The translations under genes were made by a program, and so were the position numbers. Below, in pieces: positions 25,836 to 55,926 of a stretch of 64,000 nucleotides of DNA (its first letter is position 1; the number at the start of each line of letters is the position of its first letter). The DNA lies in contig NZ_CP121117.1 in the NCBI RefSeq assembly GCF_029581395.1, positions 103,138 to 167,137 on the forward strand, in the 5' to 3' direction. Under the pieces are notes generated by a model. It saw only the letters and a program-made list of their open reading frames with translations. It was not told where the DNA came from and made no database searches. Source of the DNA: Roseinatronobacter sp. S2 (GTDB lineage: Bacteria > Pseudomonadota > Alphaproteobacteria > Rhodobacterales > Rhodobacteraceae).

Positions 25836-28040
25836 ATGGCGAAATCTGCTATGAGAATTACCCTGTCCGCATCCAAGGACATCCCTTTCGACAAGCTCAT
25901 GCTGAGCCAGTCCAATGTGCGGCGCATCAAGGCCGGTGTCTCTGTTGAGGAACTTGCCGAGGATATCGCGCGGCGTGGATTGCTGCAGGGCTTGAGCGTC
26001 CGGGCGGTGTTGAATGACGATGGCACCGAAACCGGCATGTATGAAATTCCTGCGGGCGGGCGGCGGTTTCAGGCGCTGGCTCTGCTGGTGAAGCAGAAAC
26101 GACTGGCCAGGACAGCCCCCATTCCCTGCATTCTGCGTGAGGCTGGGTCGAACATTCTGGCGGAAGACGATTCACTGGCTGAGAATATGCAGCGCGTCGC
26201 TCTGCACCCGCTCGACCAGTTTCGCGCATTCGTGGCTTTGCGCGAGAAGGGTCAGGGCGATGAAGCGATCGCCGCGGCCTTCTTTGTCACGCCGCAAGTG
26301 GTGAAGCAGCGGCTGAAGCTGGCCTCTGTGGCCCCTGCCCTTTTGGATGTCTATGCCGAGGATGGCATGACGCTTGAGCAGCTCATGGCCTTTACCGTCA
26401 ATCCTGATCACGACCGCCAGATGCAGGTCTGGGATGTGATCTCATCCTCGTGGAACAAGGAGCCGTTTCAGATCCGGCGCATGCTGACGGAAACCTCGGT
26501 CCGCGCCTCGGATCGTCGTGCGGTGTTCGTCGGGCCTGAGGCTTATGAAGCCGCTGGCGGCACGGTTCTGCGCGATCTGTTTCAAGGCGATGATGGCGGC
26601 TGGCTTGAAGATGTCGCGCTGCTCGATCGTCTTGTCGCGGATCGGTTGCAGTGCGAGGCAGAGGTGATTTCTTCCGAGGGCTGGAAGTGGATCGAGGTCG
26701 CGCTCGACCTGCCCTATGGCTACAGCCACGGGCTGCGGCGGTTGTCCGGTGATCCGGCACCAATGAGCGATGAGGAGATTGCGGCCCATGCAGCGCTGCT
26801 GGCTGAGTACCGCGCACTTGAGGATGAGTATGCCGGTCAGGATGAAATCCCCGAAGAGGTTGATGCCAGGCTGGGGGAACTCGAGCAAGCCATGGAAGCG
26901 ATCGAGGCGCGGCCGCTGATCTTCGATCCAGACGAGGTCACGCGGGCCGGGGCCTTTGTGACCCTTGATCGCTCGGGACAGCTGTCAGTTTACCGCGGCT
27001 ATGTCCGCCCAGAGGATGAGCCGCGCGCAGAGACCGCGGTTCAGGATGGCAGCGAGGCTGGCGCTGCTCAGATGGGGCAGGGGGGTGATGTCGGGCTTTC
27101 AGCTTTGGGTCACGATGGCAGCGATGCCGGGGCCCATGTCGGGACCATCATCACGTCCGGCGGTCAGCCGCTTGGGGCTGGTCTGCCGGAGGACGAGGAT
27201 GATGGCGCTTTGAAGCCACTGCCCGAGCGGCTGGTTCAGGAATTGACTGCACATCGCACGCTGGCGTTGCGCGAGGCCCTTGGCCGGTCTCCCGATGTCG
27301 CGCTGACGCTTCTTCTGATGAAACTGGTGGGTGACACGTTCCACAGCGCGGGGGCGGCGTCGGGCGGTTGTCTCGAGGCTTCAGTCCGGCAGGTCTATTT
27401 GCCTGCGCAAGCGCCGGATCTGAAGGACAGCGCCGTGGCGCTTGCCGTCGATGATCGCCACGCCGCATGGGAAGCCGATCTGCCCCTTGGCAATGAAGCT
27501 GCGCTCTGGGACTATCTGTCAGTGCTCGACCAGGGCAGCCGCCTGTCCTTGCTGGCCCATTGCCTCAGCTTCGGGATCAATGCCCTTCATGAAAAGGTGA
27601 ACCCATATGGTGCGGGCATTTCCGCCTCTGGCCTGACACGGCGCATGGCGCAGGCGGATCGGCTGGCCCAGGCTGTCGATCTCGACATGGTGGATGCTGG
27701 CTGGGAGCCGACAGTCGACACCTATCTCAACCGTGTGCCCAAGGCGCGTATTCTCGAAGCCGTGCGCGAGGCGAAAGGGGAGGGGACAGCCCAGCTTCTG
27801 GATCACCTCAAGAAGGGCGAGATGGCGACCGAGGCCGAGCGGCTGCTCAAAGGCTCCGGCTGGTTGCCCGAGGTCCTGCGTCGCGCTGATCTGGCAGCGC
27901 TTGACGGCGAAGATGGCGCGGAAGGGCAGGGGGCCGATATCGGCTCGGACACCTTGGAAAGCGTCAGTGATGCTGACCTTCCAGCCTTCCTGACCGATGA
28001 TCTGCCGGATGCGGCCGAGGCCATGATGGCTGCAGAGTGA
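25836..28040 (+). CDS. Long ParB-like (ParB/Srx-fold) plasmid protein
   Basis: 734 residues from ATG 25836, with GGAG (25823) upstream; the frame is open further 5' but that part overlaps repC. The ParB N-terminal domain spans about residues 15-130, with GGRRFQAL at 74-81 (the GERR-type motif) and SLAENMQR at 113-120. A helix-turn-helix follows at about 139-171 (AIAAAFFVTPQVVKQRLKLA). The remaining 560 residues are specific to this plasmid-borne family: an acidic linker near 420-480 (rich in Gly/Asp/Gln) and a helical C-terminal region (LHEKVNPYGAGISASGLTRR). It is not the partition protein (that is RepB). It probably binds or processes DNA in plasmid transfer or establishment. Confidence 0.85.
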   Translation: MAKSAMRITLSASKDIPFDKLMLSQSNVRRIKAGVSVEELAEDIARRGLLQGLSVRAVLNDDGTETGMYEIPAGGRRFQALALLVKQKRLARTAPIPCILREAGSNILAEDDSLAENMQRVALHPLDQFRAFVALREKGQGDEAIAAAFFVTPQVVKQRLKLASVAPALLDVYAEDGMTLEQLMAFTVNPDHDRQMQVWDVISSSWNKEPFQIRRMLTETSVRASDRRAVFVGPEAYEAAGGTVLRDLFQGDDGGWLEDVALLDRLVADRLQCEAEVISSEGWKWIEVALDLPYGYSHGLRRLSGDPAPMSDEEIAAHAALLAEYRALEDEYAGQDEIPEEVDARLGELEQAMEAIEARPLIFDPDEVTRAGAFVTLDRSGQLSVYRGYVRPEDEPRAETAVQDGSEAGAAQMGQGGDVGLSALGHDGSDAGAHVGTIITSGGQPLGAGLPEDEDDGALKPLPERLVQELTAHRTLALREALGRSPDVALTLLLMKLVGDTFHSAGAASGGCLEASVRQVYLPAQAPDLKDSAVALAVDDRHAAWEADLPLGNEAALWDYLSVLDQGSRLSLLAHCLSFGINALHEKVNPYGAGISASGLTRRMAQADRLAQAVDLDMVDAGWEPTVDTYLNRVPKARILEAVREAKGEGTAQLLDHLKKGEMATEAERLLKGSGWLPEVLRRADLAALDGEDGAEGQGADIGSDTLESVSDADLPAFLTDDLPDAAEAMMAAE

Positions 28041-36058: not shown

Positions 36059-36136
36059 GTGTCAACCTTCTTGCTCTCGCACGGCGATGAGCGAACGGAC
36101 GATGCCTCTTGCTTCGTCTGACCTGCCACTGAACTT

Positions 36137-42210: not shown

Positions 42211-42615
42211 ATGCAGAACATCGTCATCCTCGCTGGCAACATTGGCCAAAAACCCGAAACCCGCACCACCCAAGGTGGCACCAACATCACCAACTTCAGC
42301 CTCGCCACCTCCCGCCCCCGCCTCTCGGAAGGTCGCGTGCTGCGCGACGAGAACGGCTACCGGGTCATGGACACGGAATGGCACCGCATCACCTGCTTCA
42401 ACGGTCTCGGCAAGACGGTCGCGGAGCACTGCGAAAAGGGCATGAAAGTCCTCGTCCACGGCCGCATCCACTACACGAAATGGATCGACAGCATGGGGAA
42501 CGACCGCTACGGCTGCGAGATCATCGCCGAGAAGGTCGATTTCCTCAGCCGCCCGAAATCGGCCGAGAGTGAAAACCCCGAGCTGGTCGACAAAGACGAC
42601 GAGATCCCGTTCTGA
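42211..42615 (+). CDS. ssb: Single-stranded DNA-binding protein, copy 1
   Basis: 134 residues from ATG 42211 (MQNIVILAGNIGQKPETRTT), preceded by AGAAGGAAG. The OB fold is standard: TNITNFSLATSR, TEWHRITCFNGLGKTVAEHC, KGMKVLVHGRIHYTKW, GCEIIAEKVDFL. It ends with the acidic tip DKDDEIPF that recruits partner proteins. The protein is shorter than chromosomal SSB (no long Gly/Gln linker), as is common on plasmids. It differs from copy 2 at only a few residues (TQGGTN versus TQSGTN, WIDSMG versus WTDAAG). It coats single strands during replication or plasmid entry. A hairpin overlaps its stop. Confidence 0.95.
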   Translation: MQNIVILAGNIGQKPETRTTQGGTNITNFSLATSRPRLSEGRVLRDENGYRVMDTEWHRITCFNGLGKTVAEHCEKGMKVLVHGRIHYTKWIDSMGNDRYGCEIIAEKVDFLSRPKSAESENPELVDKDDEIPF

Positions 42616-43442: not shown

Positions 43443-44642
43443 ATGGGTGTTGTGGAAGTAATGGATCCGGTTCGGCCGACGCGGGCAGGTGGCTGGAAAG
43501 TGGATGTAAGCCGGGGCGAGCGGAACGGGCGTGTGTCGTCCGAATGGTTCAACCGGCCTGATGACGAGCGGTATCTGTCGCTCGACGATCTCTGGGCCGA
43601 TGTGAAGGGTCGGTCCGAGCGCAGCCGCAGCCGGGTGGTGCAGACGGCAGACATCCGGGTCGAGGCCGCGCGCGATAACCCCGAGCGGTTGCATCTGATG
43701 CTGCCAACAGCGCAAGAGCCGGTCGCGCCCACGCACTGGGCCTTCGGCCAGCTGGCCAGCATTGTCGGCGCCCCGGCGTCATATCTGCGGCAGCTGCCAG
43801 CGCCACTGGCGGGGATCAACCTGCAATACGGCCTGACCAACCACCGGGCCGAGCAGGTGAAGACCTTCGAGACCGAAGATGGCCGCACCGAACTGCGCGC
43901 GGTGACCGGTCCGGACTATGGCCGCATCCATGACCACGAGCTGGTCGAGGCGGTTCAGCGCATTGCGGGCAATGGCACGGGGGATACGCGCTGGAAGGTG
44001 CCGGGTGTGCTCGACTGGTCGACCGGGGTCTACAACCCCGATGTCGAGATCAGCCGCGACACGACCACGCTCTATGCCTCGGACCGTGACGTCTTCCTGT
44101 TCCTGGTCGATGATCGCAACCCGATCGAGGCAGGCAAGCTGCCCGACGGCTCCCCCGATCTCTACTTCCGGGGCTTTTACTGCTGGAACTCCGAAGTTGG
44201 TGCCAAGACCCTCGGCATGGCAAGTTTCTACCTGCGAGCAGTGTGTCAAAACCGCAACCTCTGGGGCGTCGAAGATTTTCAGGAAATCCGCATCCGGCAT
44301 TCGAAATATGCCGCCTCGCGCTTCGCGCATGAGGCTGCCCCGGCGTTGACGCGGTTTGCCAATTCCTCGCCGCAAGGGTTTGTGAACGGGATCAAGGCCG
44401 CGCGGCAGCAGATCGTGGCACGCACGGATGAGGATCGTGCGGATTTCCTGCGCAAGCGCGGTTTCTCAAAGGCCGAATCCGGCAAGATTATCGAGAAAGT
44501 GCTGATGGAAGAGGAGCGCCCGCCCGAGTCGATCTTCGATTTCGTGCAGGGCATCACGCGGCTGGCGCGCGACAAGACCCAGCAGGATGCCCGCCTCGAC
44601 ATGGAAGGGCGCGCCAAGAAGCTGCTCGACCGGGTCGGCTGA
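43443..44642 (+). CDS. DUF932-family protein
   Basis: 399 residues from ATG 43443 (MGVVEVMDPVRPTRAGGWKV), with CGGAGG upstream; the upstream open frame covers the leader motif. DUF932 (phage/plasmid-like) features are clear: WFNRPDDERYLSLDDLWADV, FGQLASIVGAPASYLRQLPA, RAVTGPDYGRIHDHELVEAV, DRDVFLFLVDDRNPIEAG and RGFYCWNSEVGAKTLGMASF. The C-terminal helical part includes GFSKAESGKIIEKVLMEEER. The family is common on plasmids and phages. The biochemical role is not known; some members sit beside replication or recombination genes. It shares its leader with the ParB-like gene and the next gene. Confidence 0.9.
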   Translation: MGVVEVMDPVRPTRAGGWKVDVSRGERNGRVSSEWFNRPDDERYLSLDDLWADVKGRSERSRSRVVQTADIRVEAARDNPERLHLMLPTAQEPVAPTHWAFGQLASIVGAPASYLRQLPAPLAGINLQYGLTNHRAEQVKTFETEDGRTELRAVTGPDYGRIHDHELVEAVQRIAGNGTGDTRWKVPGVLDWSTGVYNPDVEISRDTTTLYASDRDVFLFLVDDRNPIEAGKLPDGSPDLYFRGFYCWNSEVGAKTLGMASFYLRAVCQNRNLWGVEDFQEIRIRHSKYAASRFAHEAAPALTRFANSSPQGFVNGIKAARQQIVARTDEDRADFLRKRGFSKAESGKIIEKVLMEEERPPESIFDFVQGITRLARDKTQQDARLDMEGRAKKLLDRVG

Positions 44643-44656
44643 CGCGATCCTTCTGA

Positions 44657-44688
44657 ACGTGGCCGCGCAAGGCAACGGGCGGCCACGT
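44657..44688 (+). terminator. Hairpin after the DUF932 gene
   Basis: ACGTGGCCGC (44657-44666) pairs perfectly with GCGGCCACGT (44679-44688) across 12 nt, 14 bp after the stop. No T-tract; it may stabilise or end the message. Confidence 0.55.
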
Positions 44689-44779
44689 CCGTTTCACGTT
44701 CTGCATGGCTATCCACATCAACGCCGCCGCCCCCCTTCGAGGCAGAGGGCGGCGGTTTGGTCTTTGACGGTTTCAAGCG

Positions 44780-44800
44780 GGGAGAGAGGCTTTCCGCGCC
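44780..44800 (+). promoter_or_regulatory. Shared leader motif, copy C (44817 gene)
   Basis: GGGAGAGAGGCTTTCCGCGC plus C; 17 of 21 bases match copy A. It ends 16 nt before the ATG at 44817. Confidence 0.5.
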
Positions 44801-44816
44801 GTCGGAGATATCAGCC

Positions 44817-45335
44817 ATGTTCGACTTGCCCCTGCCGATCCACCCGACCCCTCGCCCGAGCGGCCCCGCGCCACACAGCCCAAATGGCTCCGCTGACCCC
44901 AGCCGCCCCTTCGCCCTGACAGTCTCAAACCCTTTGCCCGCTGCTCAGATGTCGGGCCGGGCCGCGCCCATGGTCCTTGCGCGTTTCAAGACGCTGGCGG
45001 AGGCCATGCAGGGCGCGACCGATCATGCCGAGGACATGGCCCCCGATGCTTCCCCGCAGATGATTGCCATTCTGGACCGCGACGCGCGTCTGGTGCTCGC
45101 GGGTGCGGCCAGCGAGAGCGCAGTGGCCTGGTGCCATCCGGTGACCAGTGCCGCCGAGGCGCGCTCCGTGGTGCATGAGGCAAGCCAGCTGCGCGCCCAG
45201 GCGGGCCGTGCCGCCGATTGGCGCGAGGCTGATCTGGCAGAACGCCTGCGCCAGCGTGCCGATCTGCTGGATGCGCGTCTGGTCGATCCGCTCTGGTGCG
45301 GATTTGCCGCCCGCGCGCTGCAACTGGCAGCCTGA
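44817..45335 (+). CDS. Hypothetical plasmid protein
   Basis: 172 residues from ATG 44817 (MFDLPLPIHPTPRPSGPAPH), with CGGAGATATC upstream. The first 50 residues are proline-rich and probably disordered. The rest is an alanine-rich helical protein (VLARFKTLAEAMQGATDHAE, IAILDRDARLVLAGAASESA, DLAERLRQRADLLDARLV). There is no membrane span and no known domain. It is 174 bp after the DUF932 gene, carries its own copy of the leader motif and precedes two further small genes in the same direction. Function unknown; context links it to plasmid biology. Confidence 0.7.
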   Translation: MFDLPLPIHPTPRPSGPAPHSPNGSADPSRPFALTVSNPLPAAQMSGRAAPMVLARFKTLAEAMQGATDHAEDMAPDASPQMIAILDRDARLVLAGAASESAVAWCHPVTSAAEARSVVHEASQLRAQAGRAADWREADLAERLRQRADLLDARLVDPLWCGFAARALQLAA

Positions 45336-45434
45336 AGAGACAGAGGCGGGCAGGGCAGAGATGCGCCTTGCGGGGGGGAGAGGAAAGATCGCCCCGCGAC
45401 GCGCATGTCCCCAGGCTGTTTCAAGGAGAGAACG

Positions 45435-45950
45435 ATGCGCCAGAATTCCCCGACATTACCCGCTCCGCTGCCCCCAGCCCGCACGGATTTTCACGGGCTG
45501 CAGGCCCGGCATGCCGAGGCCGAGGCCCGCCTGGCCGCGCTGATGGCCGCCAATATGACCCGGCTTTATGATCATCTGACCCGTGCCGGCATCACCCATG
45601 TCATGGTCAGCTTTCACTGTGATCATGACATCTGCTTGATCACCGGCCTCACCGCCTGGGCGGATGATGTGGAACGCCCCTGTCCCGATGTGACCATCCC
45701 CTATGTTGCGCTGGACCAGCCCGGGCCCGCGCCCCGCAATCTGGCGCTCAGGCACGCGATTACGCGCATCGCCTGCGATGTGCTGCAGGATTTGCGCGCG
45801 GCATCCGGCACGACCCGCGCTGCAGATGGCAGCTTTTGCTTCGACGCCGCCGCGCGCGCGAACCTGCTCGATTACACTCCGTGCGATGCGATGGCTCCCT
45901 CCGGTCAGTTGCAAGCCTGCTCCGCCAGTTATGCGCGGCGGCCGTGGTGA
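45435..45950 (+). CDS. DUF6878-like protein (possibly 3'-diverged)
   Basis: 171 residues from ATG 45435, with AGGAGAGAACG upstream. The N-terminal half resembles the DUF6878 plasmid family (AEARLAALMAANMTRLYDHL, AGITHVMVSFHCDHDICLIT). In family members I recall the motif is followed by a longer acidic C-terminus; here the end is short and basic (ASYARRPW). The change after about residue 130 suggests a truncated or rearranged tail. The stop TGA overlaps the ATG of the next small gene, which shows tight coupling. Assignment from memory, moderate. Confidence 0.6.
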   Translation: MRQNSPTLPAPLPPARTDFHGLQARHAEAEARLAALMAANMTRLYDHLTRAGITHVMVSFHCDHDICLITGLTAWADDVERPCPDVTIPYVALDQPGPAPRNLALRHAITRIACDVLQDLRAASGTTRAADGSFCFDAAARANLLDYTPCDAMAPSGQLQACSASYARRPW

Positions 45951-46147
45951 TGGACCCGTTCTATGCACGCCTCGGGGTAAGCCCTCAGGACAGGCCCTGC
46001 ACTGTGCTGCGCGCCACGATCCGGGCGCTGCATCCCAGCCTGCGGCGCATGCGCGGGCTTCGCGTCGCGCGCCAGCGGTTTTACCGCGCCATGCTGGCCA
46101 GCCATGCGCGCCTGCAGACAAAGGCTAACCCAGTGGGCGCGGACTGA
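45950..46147 (+). CDS. Small basic protein coupled to the 45435 gene
   Basis: 65 residues, ATG 45950 overlapping the preceding stop (ATGA-type overlap). The sequence is basic and helical (MDPFYARLGVSPQDRPCTVL, LHPSLRRMRGLRVARQRFYR). No domain recognised. Coupling and the terminator 40 bp downstream support its reality. It might bind nucleic acid given its charge (inference). Confidence 0.5.
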   Translation: MDPFYARLGVSPQDRPCTVLRATIRALHPSLRRMRGLRVARQRFYRAMLASHARLQTKANPVGAD

Positions 46148-46186
46148 CGCTGCCGCCCCTGATCACCCCAACTCATCACACCCCAC

Positions 46187-46212
46187 GCCCGGCCTTTGGT
46201 CGGGCCTTTTCT
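46187..46212 (+). terminator. Rho-independent terminator / leader hairpin
   Basis: GCCCGGCC (46187-46194), loop TTT, GGTCGGGC (46198-46205) form an 8-bp stem with one wobble, followed by CTTTTCTT. A classic intrinsic terminator ending the 45435-46147 unit, placed immediately before the ribosome site of the 46226 gene. Confidence 0.75.
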
Positions 46213-46225
46213 TATGGAGACCCCA

Positions 46226-46645
46226 ATGGCGGATTATTTCACCCGTTTCTCGTGCCTGCTGGACGTTGGCAGCCCCGACAAGGCTGTGCGTGCGCTCGAG
46301 CTGTTCCGGGAACTGCACGCTGCGGATCACGACGCAGACGACCCGGAGGTCGCAGGCCTCACACTCGTGCGTCAGGACGCGCCCGAGGGCAGCATCCTCT
46401 GGATCTATGACGACGAACACGGCGACCCTGAGGCGGTCATCCGTTTCGTGCTGCGCCTTGCGCACGACCTCGATCTCACCGGCCTCTGGGGGTTTACCTA
46501 TGCTGTGACCTGCTCCCGGCCCCGCCTCGACGCATTCGGCGGTGGTGCGCATGTCATCGACCTTGGCGCGCGCAAATCGATTGGTGCCACCAGCACGCAA
46601 GACTGGCTGACAGCCGCACTGAACGGGGAGGACCCCCATGCCTGA
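46226..46645 (+). CDS. Hypothetical acidic plasmid protein
   Basis: 139 residues from ATG 46226 (MADYFTRFSCLLDVGSPDKA), with GGAG seven bases before it; an ATG at 46214 is the alternative. It is a small acidic alpha/beta protein (LELFRELHAADHDADDPEVA, ILWIYDDEHGDPEAVIRFVL, HVIDLGARKSIGATSTQDWL). No domain recognised. Its end overlaps the start of the 46638 gene by 8 nt, so they are co-translated. Both resemble small genes seen together on plasmids and phages; function unknown. Confidence 0.72.
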   Translation: MADYFTRFSCLLDVGSPDKAVRALELFRELHAADHDADDPEVAGLTLVRQDAPEGSILWIYDDEHGDPEAVIRFVLRLAHDLDLTGLWGFTYAVTCSRPRLDAFGGGAHVIDLGARKSIGATSTQDWLTAALNGEDPHA

Positions 46646-47282
46646 GGTGATTTGCACCACCGTCTACCAGTTCCCCGAACTCTCGGATGTGGCCAAGGAA
46701 AAAGCGCGCAGCTGGTATTGCGAATTGGGCCCCCATGATGACTGGTGGGACGCGGTCTATGAGGATTTTGAGCAGGTCTGCGAGATCCTCGGCGTCCGCC
46801 TGAAAACCACCCCCGTCCGCCTGATGGGCGGCGGCACGCGCCAAAAACCCTGCATCTGGTTCTCAGGTTTCTGGAGCCAGGGCGATGGCGCCTGTCTGGA
46901 AGGGTTTTACAGCCACGCCAAGGGCGCGACCGCGCGCATCCGCGCCTATGCGCCCAAGGACGCAAGCTTGCACAGCATAGCCGACCGGCTGCAGGCCATT
47001 CAACGGCGGAACTTCTACCAGCTTGCCGCCGAGATCAGCCATCGGGGCCGCCATTACCACGAATACAGCATGTCGGTGGACGTCACCCGTGACAGCCCGA
47101 CCTGGCAGCTGCCGACCGAGGATGCCGAGGAAACCGTGGTTGAAGCAATCCGCGATCTGGCCCGCTGGCTCTATCGTCAGCTTCAGTCTGAGTACGACCA
47201 CCTCACCTCGGATGAGGCCGTCGAGGAGGGCATTATCGCCAATGAATACACGTTCACGGAAACGGGGCGGCGGTTCGGGTGA
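46638..47282 (+). CDS. Hypothetical phage/plasmid protein (antitoxin-of-stability-system type annotation)
   Basis: A 214-residue protein overlapping the preceding gene by 8 nt. Conserved-looking blocks are VAKEKARSWYCELGPHDDWW, WFSGFWSQGDGACLEGFYSH (a hallmark of a widespread phage/plasmid family) and HYHEYSMSVDVT. It is soluble, with no signal peptide. Related proteins are sometimes labelled antitoxin of a toxin-antitoxin stability system, but I see no toxin partner here that would support this. It lies upstream of a true Phd/PemK pair. Function unknown. Confidence 0.72.
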   Translation: MPEVICTTVYQFPELSDVAKEKARSWYCELGPHDDWWDAVYEDFEQVCEILGVRLKTTPVRLMGGGTRQKPCIWFSGFWSQGDGACLEGFYSHAKGATARIRAYAPKDASLHSIADRLQAIQRRNFYQLAAEISHRGRHYHEYSMSVDVTRDSPTWQLPTEDAEETVVEAIRDLARWLYRQLQSEYDHLTSDEAVEEGIIANEYTFTETGRRFG

Positions 47283-47319
47283 CACATGGACCGGCTCAAC
47301 CCATCTCTTGCGGAATATC

Positions 47320-47339
47320 CAGAATGTATGTATATTCTG
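47320..47339. promoter_or_regulatory. Imperfect palindrome before the phd-type antitoxin gene
   Basis: CAGAATGTATGTATATTCTG (47320-47339): six-base arms CAGAAT/ATTCTG around an AT-rich centre, flanked by GAATAT (47313-47318). Toxin-antitoxin operons are usually repressed by their antitoxin at such a site, and TATATT could be the -10 element. Confidence 0.55.
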
Positions 47340-47344
47340 CACAA

Positions 47345-47614
47345 ATGGAGACCCAGATCATGCATGAGCTTCCCGAGTTCAAAGCTGCCGACCTGACGCG
47401 GCACACAAGCGACCTGTTTGACGCGGCCATTCGGTCGCCGATCGCGATCACCAAGCATCGCAAGCCGAAATTCGTGCTGATGAGCATGGACCAGTACCAG
47501 CAGCTCGCTCGGGGGGCCACGCAACAGGCTCACATGATCGACGAGATGCCAGAGGATCTCAAGGCGCTGATGATAGAAGGGCTCGAGCGGGACTTGACGC
47601 GGGCGGATGACTAA
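47345..47614 (+). CDS. Phd/YefM-type antitoxin
   Basis: 89 residues from ATG 47345; ATG 47360 (MHELPEFKAADLTRHTSDLF) is better spaced from GGAG at 47346 and may be the true start. The N-terminal Phd/YefM dimerisation and DNA-binding fold reads FKAADLTRHTSDLFDAAIRS and PIAITKHRKPKFVLMSMDQY. The C-terminal acidic tail (IDEMPEDLKALMIEGLERDL) should wrap the toxin. It overlaps the PemK/MazF-type toxin gene by 8 nt. Together they stabilise the plasmid by killing cells that lose it. Confidence 0.88.
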   Translation: METQIMHELPEFKAADLTRHTSDLFDAAIRSPIAITKHRKPKFVLMSMDQYQQLARGATQQAHMIDEMPEDLKALMIEGLERDLTRADD

Positions 47615-48023
47615 GCCGGCTGCTGGAGAAGTTTTTCGCTATCCGTTCCTGTGGAAACGCGAACAGATGGCGGGCGAGACCGAGGGCCGCAAGACGCGGC
47701 CTGTCTGTATCGCCGTCACTGTCGCCAAGTCCGATAGCGAGACCGTGGTGTTCATCTTGCCGATCACCACGCAGCCGCCCTTGGCCTCGCGCAAATTCAT
47801 CGAGGTGCCACAGATCGAGTCGCAGCGCGTTGGGTTAGAGACCCATGTTCGCAAATGGGTCATGCTGGACGAGATCAACACCGATATTCTAGAGCGGTCC
47901 TACGTCTGGGAGGACCGCACGCCCATCGGCACGTTCAGTTCCGTCTTCACATCCAGGATACAGTCCAGCCTGATCGCGCTTGCCAGGTCGGGCGGAGCAT
48001 CCGTTGTCGATCGGCTGAAGTAA
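47607..48023 (+). CDS. PemK/MazF-type toxin
   Basis: A 138-residue protein beginning MTKPAAGEVFRYPFLWKREQ. The SH3-like RNase fold is visible: GEVFRYPF, then KTRPVCIAVTV (the PGxxRPVLV-type strand), ILPITTQPP (the T-region) and RKWVMLDEINTDIL (the closing strand). Such toxins cut mRNA at short sequences. The gene starts inside the antitoxin gene (8-nt overlap). It is somewhat longer than classic MazF, with a helical tail. Its Phd-type partner is a less common pairing but known. Confidence 0.85.
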   Translation: MTKPAAGEVFRYPFLWKREQMAGETEGRKTRPVCIAVTVAKSDSETVVFILPITTQPPLASRKFIEVPQIESQRVGLETHVRKWVMLDEINTDILERSYVWEDRTPIGTFSSVFTSRIQSSLIALARSGGASVVDRLK

Positions 48024-48051
48024 TCTCGATCAACGCAGGGTCTGCCTACCC

Positions 48052-48348
48052 TCACCTGTTCCCTTCGATCCATTTCGACATCAGCCCCTTGTCGCGAAAG
48101 CATTCATCCGGCACGGCGCGGCGTTTGGTGCGGGCGAGGCGTTCGGCGAAGGCGACCTGTTTGGACGAGGGCAGGCTGTCGAGCGCTGTGGCGGGTGCCA
48201 TTCTGGCTTGCGTGTCGATCCAGGCACTGAGTGCGCGGCGATCCTGCTGCACCTCCCAAGGCAGAAGCGTCTGGTTGCGCAGGGCCAGCGCGCGCGCATA
48301 GGCGATCTGCTTGGGCGTTGCGGGCAGGGCGAATGTGGTCTCTTCCAT
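48052..48348 (-). CDS. Small protein with two copies of a TPKQ-type repeat
   Basis: 98 residues from ATG 48348 (MEETTFALPATPKQIAYARA). Two related units are visible: TPKQIAYARALALRNQTLLP ... ALSAWID, and SSKQVAFAERLARTKRRAVP ... LMSKWIE, each a helix pair with a conserved WI. It faces the toxin gene convergently (29-bp gap) and the methylase-helicase gene divergently. The family is seen on plasmids but I cannot name it. The basic surface suggests nucleic-acid binding (inference). Confidence 0.65.
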   Translation of the reverse strand: MEETTFALPATPKQIAYARALALRNQTLLPWEVQQDRRALSAWIDTQARMAPATALDSLPSSKQVAFAERLARTKRRAVPDECFRDKGLMSKWIEGNR

Positions 48349-48528
48349 CGGGGCGGTTTCCCTTGCTGGCGTGTTTTTCAACATAGAACATAACACGAAC
48401 AAATGCAAGCCGCCTATCGTCATGACAGGGGTTTTGAGAGCTTGAGGAGGGATGGGGAAGAACAGGTTTGAGCCTGCCTGAGAGAGGGGGCCTCGACCTG
48501 ATCCTGACCCTTATTCTGGAGTTTTCCC

Positions 48529-51500
48529 ATGACGCATCTTTCCCCTGTCACGCCCGCACAGGTGCCGGCTTTGCCGATCCACGCAGCTGCCCCCGCCGCG
48601 GCACCTGAAACGACCACCCCCGACACGGCGCTCACGATCCTCGCTGTGGCCGAAGCGCTGCAGCCTGATCTGGCCCAAGGTTTCCAGATCGATGCGCTGC
48701 GCCTACGCGTAGAAATGGAGCGCGCCTTTGGCGGCTCCGATGCGACCGGCGCCTGGGATTGGAAGCTCGCCTATGAGGCTGGCGAGGCAGCGCTGGTCCT
48801 GTTCCTGCGGAAATTCGGCCGCGCGCTTCTGGCCCGGGCGGGTTCACCAGCCGCGCTGCTGCCCATCCTTGCCAAGGTGGCGGGCCTCTTGCCCACGCAC
48901 ACCCGCCGCTCGGAAGAAATGGAGCGGTTCCAGCAGTTCAGTACACCGCTGCCGATGGGACTGGCGGCGCTGGCCGCCGCGCAGATCACGCCGCGTGATC
49001 TGGTCCTTGAGCCTTCGGCCGGGACCGGGCTTCTGGCGATTCTGGCCGAGATCACGGGCGGCAGCCTCGCGCTGAACGAGCTGGCCGACACCCGCGCCGA
49101 TCTTCTGCGTCGCCTGTTTCCAGGGCGTCCGGTCACCAGTTTCGACGCGGCGCAGATCGACGATCATCTGGACGCGGGTGTTCGACCGAGCGTCATCCTG
49201 ATGAACCCGCCATTCTCGGCAGTGGCCAATGTCGACGCCCGCACCACCGAGGCGACAGCCCGGCATTTGCGCTCGGCCCTTGCGCGCCTGGCCCCCGGCG
49301 GACGGCTGGTCGCCATCACAGGGGCTGGTTTCGCGCCCGAAGCCCCGGCCTGGGCTGACACTTTCACCCGCCTCACTGAGTCCGCGCATCTGGTCTTCAC
49401 TGGTGCAGTTTCGGGCGCTGCCTTCGCCAAGCACGGCACCAGCTTCGAGACGCGGGTTTCGGTCTTCGACAAATGCCGCGGTGGCGAGGCGTGCGGCATC
49501 ACCGCCGAGCTGGCGCGCCCGATATCGCCTGATGTCGCCAGCCTGCTGTCGCTGATCACCGCTTATGTCCCCCCACGCCTCGCGCTGGCGCAGGTCGCAC
49601 CAGCCGGGCAGGGCCACACTTCCCCCTTCCCGGGAAATCCTGCCCGCCCCACGCGCACGGCCATCAGCACATCGCGCGCGACCCCTGCGGCCCAGCCCCA
49701 CCAATCCAGTGCACAAATCGAGGCTGAAGATCTGGCCTATACGCAGCGCGATGCGACTGAGGACGATGCCAGTGCGCGCCTGTCGGATGCCATTTATGAA
49801 ACCTTCCGGCTGCAGGCGATCGACATCCCCGGCGCGGCACCGCACCCGACGAAGTTGGTGCAATCGGCGGCGATGGCCTCGGTCGCGCCCCCGAAACCCA
49901 GCTACCGCCCCCAGCTGCCCGCCGCCATCCTGCGTGAGGGGCTTCTGTCCGACGCGCAACTCGAGACCGTGATCTACGCGGGCGAAGCGCATTCGGCGTA
50001 TCTCGCCGGGTCCTGGTGCGTCGATGAAACCGGCGACATGGTCTCGGCCGCGCCCGACGATGCCGCAGACGCCATCCGCTTCCGCCGAGGCTTCTTCCTC
50101 GGCGATGGCACGGGTGCAGGCAAGGGCCGCCAGTCGGCCGGAATTGTTCTGGACAACTGGGCGCAGGGCCGCCGCAAGGCGCTCTGGATTTCCAAGAGCG
50201 ACAAGCTTTTGGAGGATGCGCAGCGCGACTGGTCGGCCCTTGGCCAGGAACGCTTGCTGGTCACACCGCTCTCGCGCTTTGCGCAAGGCAAAGACATCCC
50301 GCTCACGGAAGGCATCCTCTTCACCACCTACGCCACACTGCGCTCGGAAGAGCGGGGGGCAAAAAAGTCCCGCGTTGACCAGATCGTCGACTGGTTGGGG
50401 GCTGATTTCGACGGGGTGATCCTGTTCGATGAAAGCCATGCCATGGCGAATGCCGCCGGATCGAAGGGCGAGCGCGGTGACACCGAGGCCTCGCAGCAGG
50501 GCAGGGCGGGCCTGTGTCTGCAACACAAGCTGCCCAATGCCCGCGTGGTTTATGTCTCGGCCACGGGCGCGACCTCGGTGCACAACCTCGCCTATGCGCA
50601 GCGGCTCGGCCTCTGGGGCGGGGAAGACTTTCCGTTTTCGACGCGGGCAGAATTCGTGCAAGCGATTGAGGCGGGTGGCGTAGCTGCGATGGAAGTCCTT
50701 GCCCGCGACCTGCGGTCGCTCGGTCTCTACACGGCCCGGTCGCTTTCTTATGACGGCGTCGAATACGAGATGCTGGTTCATGCCCTCAGCCCGGAGCAGC
50801 GAAGCATCTATGATGCCTATGCCGGCGCCTTCGCCATCATCCACAATAACCTGGCCGCTGCGATGGAGGCCGCGAATGTCACGGGTGAGAACGGCACGCT
50901 GAACCGCCAGGCCAAATCCGCCGCGCGGTCTGCCTTCGAGTCCGCCAAGCAGCGCTTCTTCGGCCATCTCCTCACCTCAATGAAAACCCCCACTTTGATC
51001 GCCGCCATCGATGCCGATCTGGCAGCAGGCCATGCGTCGGTCATCCAGATCGTCTCGACCGGCGAGGCGCTGATGGAACGCCGCCTGTCGGACATCCCCA
51101 CGGATGAATGGAATGACGTCCGCGTTGACATCACGCCGAGGGAGGCGTGCCTCGACTACCTCGCCCATTCCTTCCCGGTGCAGCTGTTTGAGCCCTTCAC
51201 CGACAGCGAGGGCAACCTGTCTTCGCGGCCTGTCACGCGCGATGGCCAGCCGGTGGAATGCCGCGAGGCGGTGCGACGACGCGATGCGCTGATCGAGCAT
51301 CTGGCAAGCCTGCCGCCCGTGCCCGGCGCGCTCGACCAGATCGTCCAGCGCTTCGGCACCGATCTAGTGGCGGAAGTGACGGGCCGGTCGCGGCGCATCG
51401 TGCGCAAAGGCGCTGGTCCTGCGGCGCGCCTTGTCGTGGAAAGCCGGGCAGGATCTGCCAATCTCGCGGAAACCGCCGCCTTCATGGATGACCAGAAGCG

Positions 51501-52932
51501 TATCCTGATCTTCTCAGACGCCGGTGGCACGGGGCGTAGCTATCACGCCGATCTTGGCGCCAAGAACCAGCGCCTGCGGGTGCATTACCTCTTGGAACCG
51601 GGCTGGAAGGCCGATGCTGCGATCCAGGGCCTTGGCCGCACCAACCGCACCAATCAGGCGCAACCGCCACTGTTCCGGCCTGTGGCCACCGATGTGAAAG
51701 CAGAAAAGCGTTTTCTCTCCACCATCGCGCGCCGCCTCGACACGCTGGGGGCCATCACGCGCGGCCAGCGCCAGACAGGCGGGCAGGGGCTCTTCCGGCC
51801 GGAAGACAACCTCGAGTCGCCCTATGCCCGCGACGCGCTCCGCCAGCTCTACCGCAAACTGCATCGCGGTGATGTCGCGGGCTGTTCGCTGGAAGCGTTT
51901 GAGGATGCGACCGGTCTCAACCTGACCGATGACAACGGTCTCAAGGACAATCTGCCCCCGATCACCACCTTCCTCAATCGGCTGCTGGCGCTGACGATCG
52001 ATATGCAGGGTGTGCTGTTCACAGCCTTCGAGGAGCTTCTCGACCAGCGCATCGAGGGTGCCATCGCGGCCGGGGTCTATGACCTCGGTCTCGAGACCCT
52101 GCGTGCCGAAAGCTTCCGTGTCACGGATGCGCGGGTGATCTACACCCATCCCGGCTCTGGCGCGGAAACCCAGCTTCTCACCATCGCGCAAAAGCAGCGC
52201 AACACGCCGCTGTCACTGGCGGATGCGCTGGATTGGCTGGAAGATCCGAAAGCGCGGCTGCTGGTCAACAGCCGTTCAAACCGCGCTGCTGTGCTGGTGC
52301 CCGCGACCAGCCTGATGCTTGATGATGGCACCATCGAGCCGCGCCTGCGACTGGTCCGTCCCACCGAGGCCAGTACTGTGCCTGCCAAGATCATGGAGGA
52401 CACCCACTGGCTCGAGGCTGACCGCGCTGCCTTCACTGCCGCCTGGACTGCGGAACTGGCTGAGGTGCCGGAGTTCTCGGAAACCACGCTGCACATCGTG
52501 GCAGGCCTCTTGCTGCCGATCTGGAAGCAGCTCCCCCAGGATGAGACCCGCGTCTACCGACTGCAAACTGACGATGGCCAGCGCATCATCGGCCGCCGGG
52601 TCTCGCCCGCCTGGGTCGCAACCACGCTGGCGGAGGATGCACCAAAGCTCACAGCGGCGCAGGTCCATGCCCTTATTCTGGAGGGCAAGACGGTGGTGCG
52701 GCTGGCGGAGGGGATGGAGTTGCACCGCTCGCGCGTCATGGGGGTCAACCGGATCGAGCTGTCTGGCTTCACCGAGGCCGCCAAGGACCGGCTCAAGGCG
52801 GATGGCTTCTTTTCGGAAATCATCGCCTGGAAGCTGCGGCTGTTCTGCCCGACGGATCCGCGTGGGATTGCGGTGCTGGAGCAGTTGCTTGCGCGCCTGC
52901 CCGTCGCTGGCCTACATGCACGCAATGGTTGA
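48529..52932 (+). CDS. Adenine-methylase / strawberry-notch helicase fusion (DarB-like)
   Basis: A 1467-residue protein. The N-terminal N6-adenine methylase has motif I LEPSAGTG (160-167) and motif IV NPPF (226-229). A strawberry-notch (SF2) helicase follows: Walker A GDGTGAGKGRQ (525-535), TTYATL, the DESH box (634-637), then DAGGTGRSYHAD (about 997-1008) and IQGLGRTNRTNQ (1032-1043), whose arginines are motif VI. This methylase-helicase fusion resembles DarB, the phage P1 virion protein that protects incoming DNA from type I restriction. It may methylate or protect the plasmid during entry. The Toprim gene starts at its 3' end, so they are co-transcribed. No frameshift; a very large single gene. 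Confidence 0.88.
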   Translation: MTHLSPVTPAQVPALPIHAAAPAAAPETTTPDTALTILAVAEALQPDLAQGFQIDALRLRVEMERAFGGSDATGAWDWKLAYEAGEAALVLFLRKFGRALLARAGSPAALLPILAKVAGLLPTHTRRSEEMERFQQFSTPLPMGLAALAAAQITPRDLVLEPSAGTGLLAILAEITGGSLALNELADTRADLLRRLFPGRPVTSFDAAQIDDHLDAGVRPSVILMNPPFSAVANVDARTTEATARHLRSALARLAPGGRLVAITGAGFAPEAPAWADTFTRLTESAHLVFTGAVSGAAFAKHGTSFETRVSVFDKCRGGEACGITAELARPISPDVASLLSLITAYVPPRLALAQVAPAGQGHTSPFPGNPARPTRTAISTSRATPAAQPHQSSAQIEAEDLAYTQRDATEDDASARLSDAIYETFRLQAIDIPGAAPHPTKLVQSAAMASVAPPKPSYRPQLPAAILREGLLSDAQLETVIYAGEAHSAYLAGSWCVDETGDMVSAAPDDAADAIRFRRGFFLGDGTGAGKGRQSAGIVLDNWAQGRRKALWISKSDKLLEDAQRDWSALGQERLLVTPLSRFAQGKDIPLTEGILFTTYATLRSEERGAKKSRVDQIVDWLGADFDGVILFDESHAMANAAGSKGERGDTEASQQGRAGLCLQHKLPNARVVYVSATGATSVHNLAYAQRLGLWGGEDFPFSTRAEFVQAIEAGGVAAMEVLARDLRSLGLYTARSLSYDGVEYEMLVHALSPEQRSIYDAYAGAFAIIHNNLAAAMEAANVTGENGTLNRQAKSAARSAFESAKQRFFGHLLTSMKTPTLIAAIDADLAAGHASVIQIVSTGEALMERRLSDIPTDEWNDVRVDITPREACLDYLAHSFPVQLFEPFTDSEGNLSSRPVTRDGQPVECREAVRRRDALIEHLASLPPVPGALDQIVQRFGTDLVAEVTGRSRRIVRKGAGPAARLVVESRAGSANLAETAAFMDDQKRILIFSDAGGTGRSYHADLGAKNQRLRVHYLLEPGWKADAAIQGLGRTNRTNQAQPPLFRPVATDVKAEKRFLSTIARRLDTLGAITRGQRQTGGQGLFRPEDNLESPYARDALRQLYRKLHRGDVAGCSLEAFEDATGLNLTDDNGLKDNLPPITTFLNRLLALTIDMQGVLFTAFEELLDQRIEGAIAAGVYDLGLETLRAESFRVTDARVIYTHPGSGAETQLLTIAQKQRNTPLSLADALDWLEDPKARLLVNSRSNRAAVLVPATSLMLDDGTIEPRLRLVRPTEASTVPAKIMEDTHWLEADRAAFTAAWTAELAEVPEFSETTLHIVAGLLLPIWKQLPQDETRVYRLQTDDGQRIIGRRVSPAWVATTLAEDAPKLTAAQVHALILEGKTVVRLAEGMELHRSRVMGVNRIELSGFTEAAKDRLKADGFFSEIIAWKLRLFCPTDPRGIAVLEQLLARLPVAGLHARNG

Positions 52933-52937
52933 AAAAG

Positions 52938-53978
52938 ATGCGGTCCATGTCGGTTGAAACAGAAGATTTACTGCGCGAACTTGCGCAAAACGCTGAAAGC
53001 GTATGTCGTCATTACCTTCCCGCCGGGCGGCGGGAAGGGTCTTACTGGATGGTGGGCGATCTGCAGAACAACCCGGGCCGGTCGCTCTTTGTGCGGTTGA
53101 CCGGTCCTACGTCGGGGCCGGGGGCGCGGGGGAAATGGACTGACTCCGCCACGTCGCAATATGGGGATCTGCTGGATATCATCCGCGCACGCACGGGGAT
53201 CACGCGGTTTCCCGAACTCCTGGACGAGGCCCGCGCGCATCTTGGCCGTCCGCAGCCGGTCCTCCCGCATGTGCCAGCACCGAGGAAACCCAAACCCCCC
53301 GGTGGCACGCCAGCAGCAGCAGCGCGCCTGTTCGCGGCCTCAAAGCCGGTCGCCGGCACGCTTGCCGACAGCTATCTGCGCGCCCGGGGCCTCACCCAAG
53401 GCGGCATGATGAGTGCCCTGCGCTTCCACCCCAAGTGCTGGCATCGGGATGAGGGTGAGAGCAAGCCTGTCCCCAGACCGGCGCTGATCGCTGCAGTCAC
53501 TGATGGGGCAGGGGCCTTGCAGGGTGTGCATCGCACTTGGCTGGCACCTGACGGAGAGGGAAAGGCGGCGGTCAAAACGCAGCGGCGTGCCATGGGTCAC
53601 CTTCTGGGCAATGCCGTCAGGCTGACCCCGCATGAGGGCATCCTTGTGGTTGGCGAAGGCATCGAGACCATGTTGTCGCTCACGCAAGCGGTCCCCGGCC
53701 TTCCTGTCTGGGCGGCGCTCTCATCGGGTCACCTCGGGGCCGTCCTGTTGCCGGAGGGTTTGCAGCGCCTCTATATCGCCATCGACCGCGATCCGGCCGG
53801 CCAACGCGCGGCAGAGAGGTTGAGCGCCAGAGCCCGTGATGCCGGGATAGCCGTGCAGGTGCTGGAACCGCGTCTCGGGGATTTCAACGATGATCTCCGG
53901 GCGCACGGCGTCGCAGGGCTGCGTCCGCATCTGGCAGGTCAGATCGGGCCCGAGGATCGCCAGCGCCTGTTCGGCTGA
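52938..53978 (+). CDS. Toprim-domain (plasmid primase-like) protein
   Basis: 346 residues from ATG 52938 (MRSMSVETEDLLRELAQNAE); a TTG at 52929 overlaps the helicase stop and is possible. The N-terminal part (SVCRHYLPAGRREGSYWMVG) is the primase-type entry domain but lacks a CHC2 zinc finger. The Toprim domain (about residues 235-315) has the catalytic Glu in ILVVGEGIETMLS and DxD in LYIAIDRDPAGQRAAERL. DUF7146-type middle region (DSYLRARGLTQG). It could prime plasmid strands or relax DNA. Directly coupled to the helicase gene, so both probably act on the same single-stranded or damaged DNA. Confidence 0.88.
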   Translation: MRSMSVETEDLLRELAQNAESVCRHYLPAGRREGSYWMVGDLQNNPGRSLFVRLTGPTSGPGARGKWTDSATSQYGDLLDIIRARTGITRFPELLDEARAHLGRPQPVLPHVPAPRKPKPPGGTPAAAARLFAASKPVAGTLADSYLRARGLTQGGMMSALRFHPKCWHRDEGESKPVPRPALIAAVTDGAGALQGVHRTWLAPDGEGKAAVKTQRRAMGHLLGNAVRLTPHEGILVVGEGIETMLSLTQAVPGLPVWAALSSGHLGAVLLPEGLQRLYIAIDRDPAGQRAAERLSARARDAGIAVQVLEPRLGDFNDDLRAHGVAGLRPHLAGQIGPEDRQRLFG

Positions 53979-54348
53979 GCCGCATCGCGCAGGGGGCGGT
54001 CGGGGATGGCGGGGCAGGGGTCACGGATCCCTGTCGTGGCTCTGGACCATCGCTTTGCCTCTTCCCGGGCTTTGCTCATCCCCCGACACCCGAGCGGCCT
54101 TCTCAGAGATGGGCGTGCTGCCGTCAAAGGGTCCGCCCCCTCAAGGGCGGCAGTCAGGCTATTTCCGCCGCAGGGGACGAGCCCCCGCTTTGCATCGCGA
54201 AACAAATAGCCTGCCTGCCGCCCTCCTCCACTGCGTTTCGGCCCCCAAAGAGGGGGTGAAGGGGCGTCCGCCATGACGGCTCAGAGCTGCCCATGAAGGC
54301 CGCGCGGGATGTCGCGCGGACGAGTTGAGGCCCGGAGGCAAGACCAAA
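53979..54348. other. 370-bp stretch without a gene
   Basis: It is GC-rich with poor coding character on both strands. The end (GTTGAGGCCCGGAGGCAAG) provides the ribosome site of the DUF2493 gene. No shared leader motif was found here. Confidence 0.4.
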
Positions 54349-55284
54349 ATGACGATCCAGACCCACGACGATGCCTATGACCCCGCCCAGACTGTATCCC
54401 AAACCGCCCATGCGCTCGAAGAGCTGCAGCTCTATGGCTACCGTCCCTTTGAAGACGAGCCCGATCCGCGCCCGATGCCGGATGCCGATCACCTGCGCCG
54501 CGCCGCAGCCGATATCTTCGACGCCCTCGTCGCGACCCTGGAAGACACCCGCATGGAACCCGACCTCGAAGAAGTCCTCTGGGGCCAGGTCAACCTGTTT
54601 CACCGTGCGACGGCACGGATCGAGCGGTCGCTCGATGAGAACGAGCAGGCGCAGCGCCGCCTCCAGCGCGAGCAGGACGGCTCCGAGGTGAAATCCACCG
54701 AACTTGAGCGCCTGACGGCCGAAGGCCTGACCCTTGTTGAGCGGCGCAACTGCATGGATATGATGCGCGATCACGCCGCGACCGAGTTTGTCCATCATAC
54801 GGGTTCCGCCTGGCGCCCCCGCACCGGATCGATGGTGAACCGCCAGCACATGACCGCAGCGCTGATCGACAGCCGCGACTTCCTGGCCGCCAAGCGCCGC
54901 GCGGAAACCGAGGTGATGCTGCCCGCGGGCCCGAAGGTTGCCCTCACCGGTAGCAGCGATTTCAACGATCACCGCCTGATCTGGGGCAAGCTCGATCAAG
55001 TCCGGAGCAAACATCCCGATATGGTGCTCTTGCATGGGGGAAGCCCCAAGGGCGCGGAACTCATCGCCGCCAAATGGGCCGAGGCGAGGGGTGTCACGCA
55101 GGTGGCCTTCAAGCCTGACTGGACCAAACACGCCAAGGCCGCGCCCTTCAAGCGCAACGATGCGATGCTGGACGTGCTGCCGGTGGGTGTTCTGGTCTTC
55201 CCGGGCAATGGCATTCAGGAGAACCTCGCTGACAAGGCCCGCAAGCTGGGCATCCCGGTCATGAAGTTTGAGAAGGGGGCGTGA
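54349..55284 (+). CDS. DUF2493 (SLOG/YspA-like) plasmid protein
   Basis: 311 residues from ATG 54349 (MTIQTHDDAYDPAQTVSQTA). The first 190 residues are helical, with a coiled-coil-like ERSLDENEQAQRRLQREQDG. The C-terminal DUF2493 domain starts at about residue 198: KVALTGSSDFNDHRLIWGKL, then MVLLHGGSPKGAELIAAKWA and LVFPGNGIQENLADKARK. It is a Rossmann-like SLOG fold that binds nucleotides. SLOG proteins occur in phage defence and plasmid systems. It follows the Toprim gene on the same strand. Confidence 0.88.
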   Translation: MTIQTHDDAYDPAQTVSQTAHALEELQLYGYRPFEDEPDPRPMPDADHLRRAAADIFDALVATLEDTRMEPDLEEVLWGQVNLFHRATARIERSLDENEQAQRRLQREQDGSEVKSTELERLTAEGLTLVERRNCMDMMRDHAATEFVHHTGSAWRPRTGSMVNRQHMTAALIDSRDFLAAKRRAETEVMLPAGPKVALTGSSDFNDHRLIWGKLDQVRSKHPDMVLLHGGSPKGAELIAAKWAEARGVTQVAFKPDWTKHAKAAPFKRNDAMLDVLPVGVLVFPGNGIQENLADKARKLGIPVMKFEKGA

Positions 55285-55387
55285 GCCCCTTTTTCCTCAC
55301 GGGGACACCACAGCGGCGGACATCACGGTGGAAGCGATCGCTTTCCCCTGATATCATGGCACAAAGACCCCGCGCCCGGATTGCGAC

Positions 55388-55645
55388 ATGTCTCATGCTG
55401 TCAGCCAACTGGAAATCTTCCCGACCGACCTGCAAATGCGCCGGGTCGATCCTGCCCGCAACATGCGCCGGTTTTACCGCATGAGCATCCAGCCCGACCT
55501 GTTCGGCGGTGCCAGCCTTGTGCGCGAGTGGGGTCGGATCGGATATCGTGGTCAGATGATGAGCGAGCTGCATGCCGATGAAGGGCAGGCCGTGACTGCG
55601 CTCATAAAGCTCGCGCGCGTGAAACAGCGGCGGGGATATGTGTGA
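55388..55645 (+). CDS. WGR-domain protein
   Basis: 85 residues from ATG 55388 (MSHAVSQLEIFPTDLQMRRV). It is one WGR domain: RRFYRMSIQPDLFGGASLVR then EWGRIGYRGQMMSELHADEG. WGR domains occur in poly(ADP-ribose) polymerases and in bacterial DNA-associated proteins, where they bind DNA ends or other proteins. It stands 103 bp after the DUF2493 gene and 47 bp before the DUF6429 gene. Plasmid copies of this size are common; the role is unknown. Confidence 0.85.
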   Translation: MSHAVSQLEIFPTDLQMRRVDPARNMRRFYRMSIQPDLFGGASLVREWGRIGYRGQMMSELHADEGQAVTALIKLARVKQRRGYV

Positions 55646-55692
55646 TGCGTGTGGCTGCGAGACGGCGCAAAGCCTGACCAGACAACGAGGGG

Positions 55693-55926
55693 ATGATGAC
55701 ACTCGACCCTGACAAGATCGACGATGCGGCCTTCGCGATCCTCAGCCTGACGCTGCATGGTGGTGATCGGGTCTGGAAGGGGATCGATTGGGACATCACC
55801 GACCGGCTGCATGACAAAGGCCTGATCTATGATCCCAAAAACAAGGCGAAATCACTGACCCTGACGCCTGAGGGCATCGCGCATGCGCGGACCGTTCTCG
55901 CGCGGGAGTTCAGCAAGGCCGAGTGA
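55693..55926 (+). CDS. DUF6429-type small protein
   Basis: 77 residues (ATG 55693 or 55696). The sequence DDAAFAILSLTLHGGDRVWK and GIDWDITDRLHDKGLIYDPK NKAKS is the DUF6429 pattern (a conserved WKGxDWDxxxRLHxKG-type segment, from memory). It looks like a small winged helix (LTPEGIAHARTVLA at the end). It may act as a DNA-binding regulator. Same strand and near the WGR gene, so perhaps the last gene of this operon. A good Shine-Dalgarno (CGAGGGG) precedes it. Confidence 0.75.
   Translation: MMTLDPDKIDDAAFAILSLTLHGGDRVWKGIDWDITDRLHDKGLIYDPKNKAKSLTLTPEGIAHARTVLAREFSKAE

Follow-up and report, generated by a model that had tools for sequence, protein, structure and literature searches.

Gene block, class-wide core and local additions

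We have analyzed a stretch of 64,000 nucleotides of Roseinatronobacter sp. S2 DNA (the window), which represents the final 64 kb of the 167,137-base contig C5 (C5:103138-167137), and within it a gene block (43443 to 55926) built around a gene for a DNA methylase fused to a Strawberry-notch translocase. This block probably serves as the establishment module on the leading side of a conjugative plasmid of the Alphaproteobacteria, i.e., a known general kind of module in a version not described in the literature searched. C5 itself is most likely a circular plasmid, because one permease frame of 611 amino acids (aa) is continuous through both ends of the contig. It carries a relaxase gene with an LPD7 domain (C5:7492-10398, plus strand) which is preceded by a MobC-like gene, together with genes for a VirC1-like ATPase, a coupling protein and homologues of VirB8-VirB11 (25-32% identity). 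The replication genes, which lie within the window, appear from their translations to be repABC.

The methylase-translocase gene (48529..52932, plus strand; AAA_34 4.7e-122, Helicase_C_4 3e-97) encodes 1467 aa and is followed on the same strand by a gene for a Toprim primase with a DUF7146 domain (52947..53978; Toprim_3 1.5e-25, DUF7146 3e-34; start inferred), by a conserved structured element with a full core of ~215 nt (54092..54306), and by a gene for a DUF2493/YAcAr (SLOG) protein (54349..55284; PF10686 3.3e-30; start inferred from relatives). The gene for a long ParB, homologous to the ParB (YubM) of the F leading region, lies on the same strand 15 kb upstream of the block (25836..28040; ParB_N 4e-6; start codon inferred). 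The original prediction, which was made from the sequence of the window, had listed DUF932, several small genes, the fusion, Toprim, DUF2493, WGR and DUF6429, flanked by two genes for single-stranded DNA-binding protein (SSB) and linked to the long ParB; all of these genes are present, the DUF932 match being sub-threshold. The two SSB genes (copy 1 at 42211..42615, plus strand; PF00436 5e-25 for the ORF 42130-42615; start inferred) are the two copies within one H-NS/SSB direct repeat of ~0.9 kb (41455-42376 and 57884-58801, matching in four ungapped pieces at 84-96% and lying 16.4 kb apart), and the flanking of the block by SSBs thus looks like a local duplication. This repeat encloses the block and the toxin-antitoxin genes, and recombination between its copies could delete the block.

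Conservation was analyzed in two sets of loci. A genome scan, of which the best 80 of 399 relatives were kept, gave loci that are nearly all from Rhodobacterales or from unplaced metagenome-assembled genomes, one (L061) being labelled as Enemella, an actinobacterium; filtering by flank left 49 Rhodobacterales loci for the upstream side and 44 with a downstream flank of 9 kb or more, all of them close relatives. The class-wide set was composed of 19 loci in 18 genomes across the Alphaproteobacteria, three of these loci being pieces of under 12 kb. Toprim and DUF2493 follow the translocase gene in 44/44 Rhodobacterales loci, and in all 55 loci with at least 2.5 kb downstream, an order too regular for chance although these loci are close relatives; across the class Toprim, DUF2493 and the long ParB are each found in 15/19 loci. 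These counts suggest that the class-wide core is composed of the long ParB, the methylase-translocase, Toprim and DUF2493. Co-occurrence on unrelated alphaproteobacterial plasmids had been proposed as a check on the original prediction, and it is supported, the core recurring across the class and on plasmids. In PLSDB the translocase protein was matched in 688 of 72,556 records, 412 of which hold at least 80% of the protein.

Among the 49 Rhodobacterales loci there is only one where the long ParB gene stands upstream of the translocase gene at less than 10 kb, and in Rhodobacterales it is usually farther away, as in Phaeobacter plasmid pP97_c where the distance is likewise 15 kb. In 19 of the 21 other loci having both genes it is placed upstream and on the same strand as the translocase gene.

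DUF932, the small genes, WGR and DUF6429 appear to be patchy additions to this core. The DUF932-like gene (43443..44642; DUF932 2.5e-4, 21.3 bits, below the Pfam cut-off of 23) has counterparts upstream in 38/49 Rhodobacterales loci and the WGR-domain gene (55388..55645; PF05406 2e-20) in 31/44, while neither was found in any of the 19 class-wide loci; the DUF6429 gene (55693..55926; PF20008 2e-27) recurs in 3/44. SSB was found in 26/49, its positions including some downstream. Between DUF932 and the translocase gene are a gene without a family (44757..45335; 39/49), a DUF6878 gene (45405..45950; PF21798 7e-12; 38/49), and three genes without a family which encode a small basic protein (45950..46147; 44/49), an acidic protein with a pI of 4.5 (46196..46645; 44/49) and a 214-aa protein (46638..47282; 46/49), all of which are, like DUF932, WGR and DUF6429, on the plus strand. 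A further gene without a family is divergent from the translocase gene (48052..48423, minus strand) and present in 49/49 loci. Predicted structures were poor, with a mean pLDDT of 46.3 for the DUF932 protein and 55.5 for the 214-aa protein. The antitoxin-like gene with a PemK-like toxin (47360..48023, plus strand; PemK 0.0056, below cut-off), VapBC and an AAA gene are probably local cargo: among Rhodobacterales loci with enough flank PemK was found in 0/49, and VapB, VapC and the AAA gene in 0/44. A VapC homologue (40%) was present near one Methylocystis locus.

The methylase-translocase and its comparison with known systems

Eleven sequences with 25-71% identity to the protein of the window share invariant QQxSTP, EPxxGxG, NPPF, GxGKGR, DExH, SAT and GRxxR motifs, whose functional meaning we take to be that of methylase and motor motifs (GxGKGR, for example, being the Walker A motif). 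With these catalytic motifs invariant both the methylase half and the motor half look active. The methylase target is probably N6-adenine, which we infer rather than observe because the alignment profile scores alike against the EcoKI methylase subunit (9e-5) and an rRNA methyltransferase (8.6e-5). The Toprim primase appears equally intact, with E243, D286, D288 and N320 invariant in eight sequences and a DFND/DFNE motif in 7/8, a motif which in passages of PMC5512222 marks the primases of mobile elements. On a gammaproteobacterial plasmid of Methylotuvimicrobium a single 2547-aa protein (L093:15214-22857) combines translocase, ArdC-N, zincin peptidase, DUF5710 and Toprim, the Toprim match being weak and below the curated cut-off, and this fusion links the translocase, ArdC-N, zincin peptidase and Toprim functions. 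Contig C3 of the Roseinatronobacter genome carries two short pieces of another translocase gene (558092-558470), one of them with an internal stop.

The original prediction had called the fusion DarB-like. Both P1 DarB and the protein of the window are DNA methylases fused to a superfamily 2 (SF2) motor; however, the motor of DarB is of the SNF2 family whereas that of the window protein is Strawberry notch (AAA_34/Helicase_C_4), and DarB measures 2255 aa against 1467 aa. In pairwise BLASTP the methylase motif aligned (E 0.005, 22% identity), with no meaningful alignment elsewhere. DarB proteins protect DNA in cis against type I restriction, and an N-terminal LPD36 domain is named for them in PMC5512222. 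Membership of the P1 DarB family was rejected on the grounds of the different motor family and the lack of end-to-end homology, and P1 DarB is an analogue only. No phage record was matched by the translocase protein in tblastn at a cut-off of 1e-5, and no relatives in viral contigs were confirmed.

The original prediction had also presented the system as a candidate undescribed one, which holds only in part. Pairs of a methylase with an SF2/Strawberry-notch motor, with an inferred anti-restriction role for incoming DNA, and Toprim primases of conjugative elements are both described in passages on polyvalent proteins (Iyer et al., 2017; PMC5512222). The domain pairing, the Toprim primases and the proposed anti-restriction role are shared with those proteins; for the block an anti-restriction role is plausible. 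What differs is that the block divides the functions among separate genes, which recur in one order together with ParB and DUF2493; the passages mentioned contain neither the geometry relative to the relaxase gene nor the structured element.

A methylase joined to a motor could also be part of a restriction-like system, in which case the block would serve in anti-phage or anti-plasmid defence. The methylase part weakly matches mad2 of MADS in PADLOC (3.5e-9), and strong matches to candidate defence genes occur elsewhere on the plasmid; at 1e-5 PADLOC gave nothing for Toprim, DUF2493 or ParB. There is no restriction nuclease among the genes counted as conserved, although ParB could have a nuclease role, and the block is tied to the geometry of the relaxase gene described below. 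We consider a defence system to be a distinctly improbable explanation. Elsewhere on the plasmid, proteins matching PDC-M01 A and B (a PtuA-like ATPase and its partner; E 4e-198 and 2e-103) are encoded at 35207-38914 on the minus strand, and a protein matching PDC-M55C and HEC-05 at 31557-33224 on the plus strand.

Position relative to the relaxase gene and kinship with F

The translocase gene was on the relaxase strand in 63/63 tabulated pairs of the two genes on the same contig, and upstream of the relaxase gene in linear order in 57/63. These pairs comprise 10 class-wide pairs from nine families (nine upstream, at a median of 11.3 kb), 11 plasmid pairs (10 upstream) and 42 pairs from Rhodobacterales (38 upstream), the latter not being independent. 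The class-wide test covered 16 of the 21 genomes having the translocase gene, the plasmid test 13 of the 15 loci besides F (L091 and L094 were left out) and the Rhodobacterales test 32 of the 80 loci, picked for long contigs (L004 was left out and L017 was without a relaxase). W01, W06 and W07 were without a PF03432 match, though the traA annotated in its record kept W06 in the table. Where a contig with the translocase gene lacked a relaxase it was not tabulated. Two same-contig cases are also missing from the table, both on the relaxase strand: a second copy on G299:C9 lies downstream in linear order, and G314:C7 has an upstream fragment. Split genes were reassembled manually in G189, G315, G316, G317, G318 and G319. 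Five of the six exceptions to the linear order (G189, G291, G297, G311b and G316b) would fit if the contig is circular, leaving W08 as a real exception.

On C5, measured round the circle, the distance to the relaxase gene is 15.6 kb from the end of the block and 18.6 kb from the translocase gene, both lying before it. The leading genes and tra genes of F share one strand and oriT is placed between them, the tra genes as a rule entering last. Since the translocase gene lies upstream of the relaxase gene and on its strand, and the tra genes enter last, the module would be on the leading side with its genes readable from the incoming strand.

The kinship of the long ParB points the same way. It aligns over its full length with the ParB of the F leading region (BLASTP 29% over 677 aa, E 9e-53), and the F ParB as query matches 25/33 related loci as well as this plasmid; F SSB matches both SSB copies. 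Shared with the F leading region are thus a homologous long ParB and SSB, the placement of the genes on the strand of the relaxase and tra genes, and structured noncoding elements before the leading genes, which in F are Frpo1 and Frpo2 (passages of PMC9849209). What differs is that the methylase-translocase, the Toprim primase and DUF2493 here replace psiB/psiA, and there is no PsiB. Judged by these sequence comparisons the F leading region is a better anchor than P1 DarB, and the suggestion of an establishment programme made in the original prediction is one which the relaxase geometry and the homologous ParB fit. Homology of the DUF932 protein to F DUF932 was also considered and found unsupported (profile comparison probability 2.5%), F DUF932 as query finding nothing on this plasmid. 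Passages of PMC8406263 describe the ssb-parB2-psiB-psiA cluster of pED208 as widely conserved among conjugative plasmids and report that ParB2 itself is sent through the type IV secretion system; from the gene order described there, pED208 ParB2 and F YubM would be one family. Leading-region anti-defence islands (PMC11541004) are similar in having orphan methylases, SSB and toxin-antitoxin genes on the leading side, and differ in that the main text of that report is without the words strawberry, DUF932, helicase and alphaproteobacteria.

In the mechanism that we propose the plasmid would enter single-stranded, as the template strand of the block genes. SSB would coat the entering strand and the Toprim primase would start the complementary strand, after which the methylase-translocase could move along the new duplex and methylate it, probably at adenines, so that host restriction would be less harmful. 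The long ParB would act on this DNA too, in keeping with the role supposed for its F relative, and the element before DUF2493 (before DUF736 in relatives) might set the timing or strength of small-gene expression. Leading regions are known mainly from enterobacterial plasmids. If the block is indeed an establishment module, its gene order, ParB homology and position relative to the relaxase gene make it possible to name a counterpart in another class, one which holds a methylase-translocase and a primase that the examined F stretch is without.

Several observations weigh against a leading-side establishment module. F PsiB gave no tblastn match on C5 at 1e-3, DUF932 is missing from the class-wide loci and its kinship to that of F is not demonstrable. 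According to passages of the respective reports, neither transfer nor SOS was detectably changed when parB2 of pED208 was deleted (PMC8406263), nor was transfer when Frpo2 or ssb of F was deleted (PMC9849209). The leading side is deduced from the relaxase gene rather than from a mapped oriT, the gap of 15.6-18.6 kb to the relaxase gene contains transporter cargo, and in Methylotuvimicrobium W08 the translocase gene is downstream of traI. When typed, the 688 matching PLSDB records were 361 conjugative, 82 mobilizable and 245 non-mobilizable. Lastly, on pNL1 the order of genes is RepA, Toprim, translocase, which would suit a role in vegetative replication, with translocase and primase forming a primosome-like unit whose association with conjugation is incidental. 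Such a role would also account for the intact primase residues and for the presence of ParB near repABC-type genes in this plasmid (as read from translations) and in L121, L124 and L125. It is at odds with the way in which strand and order follow the relaxase gene and with the membership of ParB in the F leading-region family, and a fused methylase is unnecessary for replication; we regard it as unlikely.

A structured element upstream of DUF2493 and DUF736

The spacer between Toprim and DUF2493 measures 253-423 nt in 75 of the 77 loci listed, where spacers of up to 900 nt were covered, and 622 and 822 nt in the other two. In the window the element portion under covariance models R1/R2 is 54135..54267 (plus strand). 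For alignment A2 we started from 78 spacers, 71 of which had both landmarks; 24 of these were not near-identical, and 20 were used after dropping L113 and L115, which were misaligned, and L034 and L089, which have long inserts. These 20 sequences fold to 33 pairs, 23 of which have changes on both sides. In a 44-row alignment 92.5% of cells are paired, compared to 70.8% in shuffles, and the covariation score is 0.473 versus 0.140 when shuffled and 0.046-0.068 when slid; the 57 further pair types, a number matched by 39/500 shuffles, are a less telling measure. It should be added that alignment A5 was fitted to the model, so leans toward it, and that A2 is free of this.

The element is apparently unnamed and new in this analysis. 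Rfam release 15 gave chance-level matches only and no family match, no report of it turned up in searches of open-licence PMC papers, and it is absent from the P1 and F stretches compared. With model R2 the element was identified in 23/289 genomes of the class and the translocase gene was present in 21, with both in 15 (Fisher p 5e-15); this test is biased because the copies used to build R2 were for the most part neighbours of the translocase gene and came from some of the tested genomes. Eight genomes have the element without the translocase gene at that threshold and are free of the bias. Of the 43 copies, 20 lie before DUF736 and 18, judged by reading of the translations, before DUF2493; the other five (G105:C23:15413 and 6105, G105:C13:2006, G275:C4:21880 and G175:C2:1169318) were assigned to neither. 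The genome of the window has one copy, several relatives have more than one, and 54 PLSDB records hold something similar by BLASTN. In L090, L113 and L117 there was no element match at E 1 despite a DUF2493 match. The element precedes 20/46 DUF736 matches, and passages of PMC8627217 report DUF736 genes, often duplicated, on all elements of a Mesorhizobium set of integrative and conjugative elements and plasmids. On relaxase contigs of genomes searched for both, 17/17 element copies are on the relaxase strand and 16/17 are upstream.

As to how the element acts, there is about an even chance that it is an RNA leader of DUF2493 and DUF736 mRNAs, acting in translation or attenuation and independently of the entry of a single strand. 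In favour of this, in all 20 DUF736 copies the end of the model is a near-fixed 79-88 nt from the start of the DUF736 domain and on the same strand, the plus-strand RNA has a fold z-score of -4.6, one pair is G-U in 39/42 rows, and canonical sigma-70 -35/-10 boxes were no better than in shuffles on either strand of 34 copies, scored on the linear sequence only. Speaking against an RNA leader, the minus-strand DNA folds at least as strongly (z -5.8), and apart from the pair mentioned there are as many G-U as A-C cells (27 of each), without the expected wobble bias; a call of the strand from these cells is a tie.

More tentatively, the element may have a role as single-stranded DNA, and would then be an unnamed class of structured cis-element, common to alphaproteobacterial plasmids and integrative elements, which works while the plasmid is single-stranded. 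It could do so as a non-canonical hairpin promoter or as a site where the plasmid-encoded primase or ParB would land. The obvious analogue would be the Frpo hairpins of F as presented in passages of PMC9849209, which are similarly stable hairpins upstream of leading genes ('leading' being deduced here), and from which the element differs in having no canonical -35/-10 boxes above chance in its linear sequence. If this were true the element would turn on the establishment genes as the plasmid enters, in the manner of Frpo in F, and would be an independent invention. The small remainder of our expectation goes to binding of a protein as duplex DNA. In each case a covarying element at near-fixed spacing which is common to two families is a handle on gene switching and on the roles of DUF736 and DUF2493.

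Two further features of the plasmid were observed. An MmeI-like methylase frame (C5:14396-16447; L095) is placed ~2 kb downstream of the coupling-protein gene, and a transposase-like frame is present in two copies with identical translations in opposite orientation, at 13064-14185 (plus strand) and 36137-37258 (minus strand).

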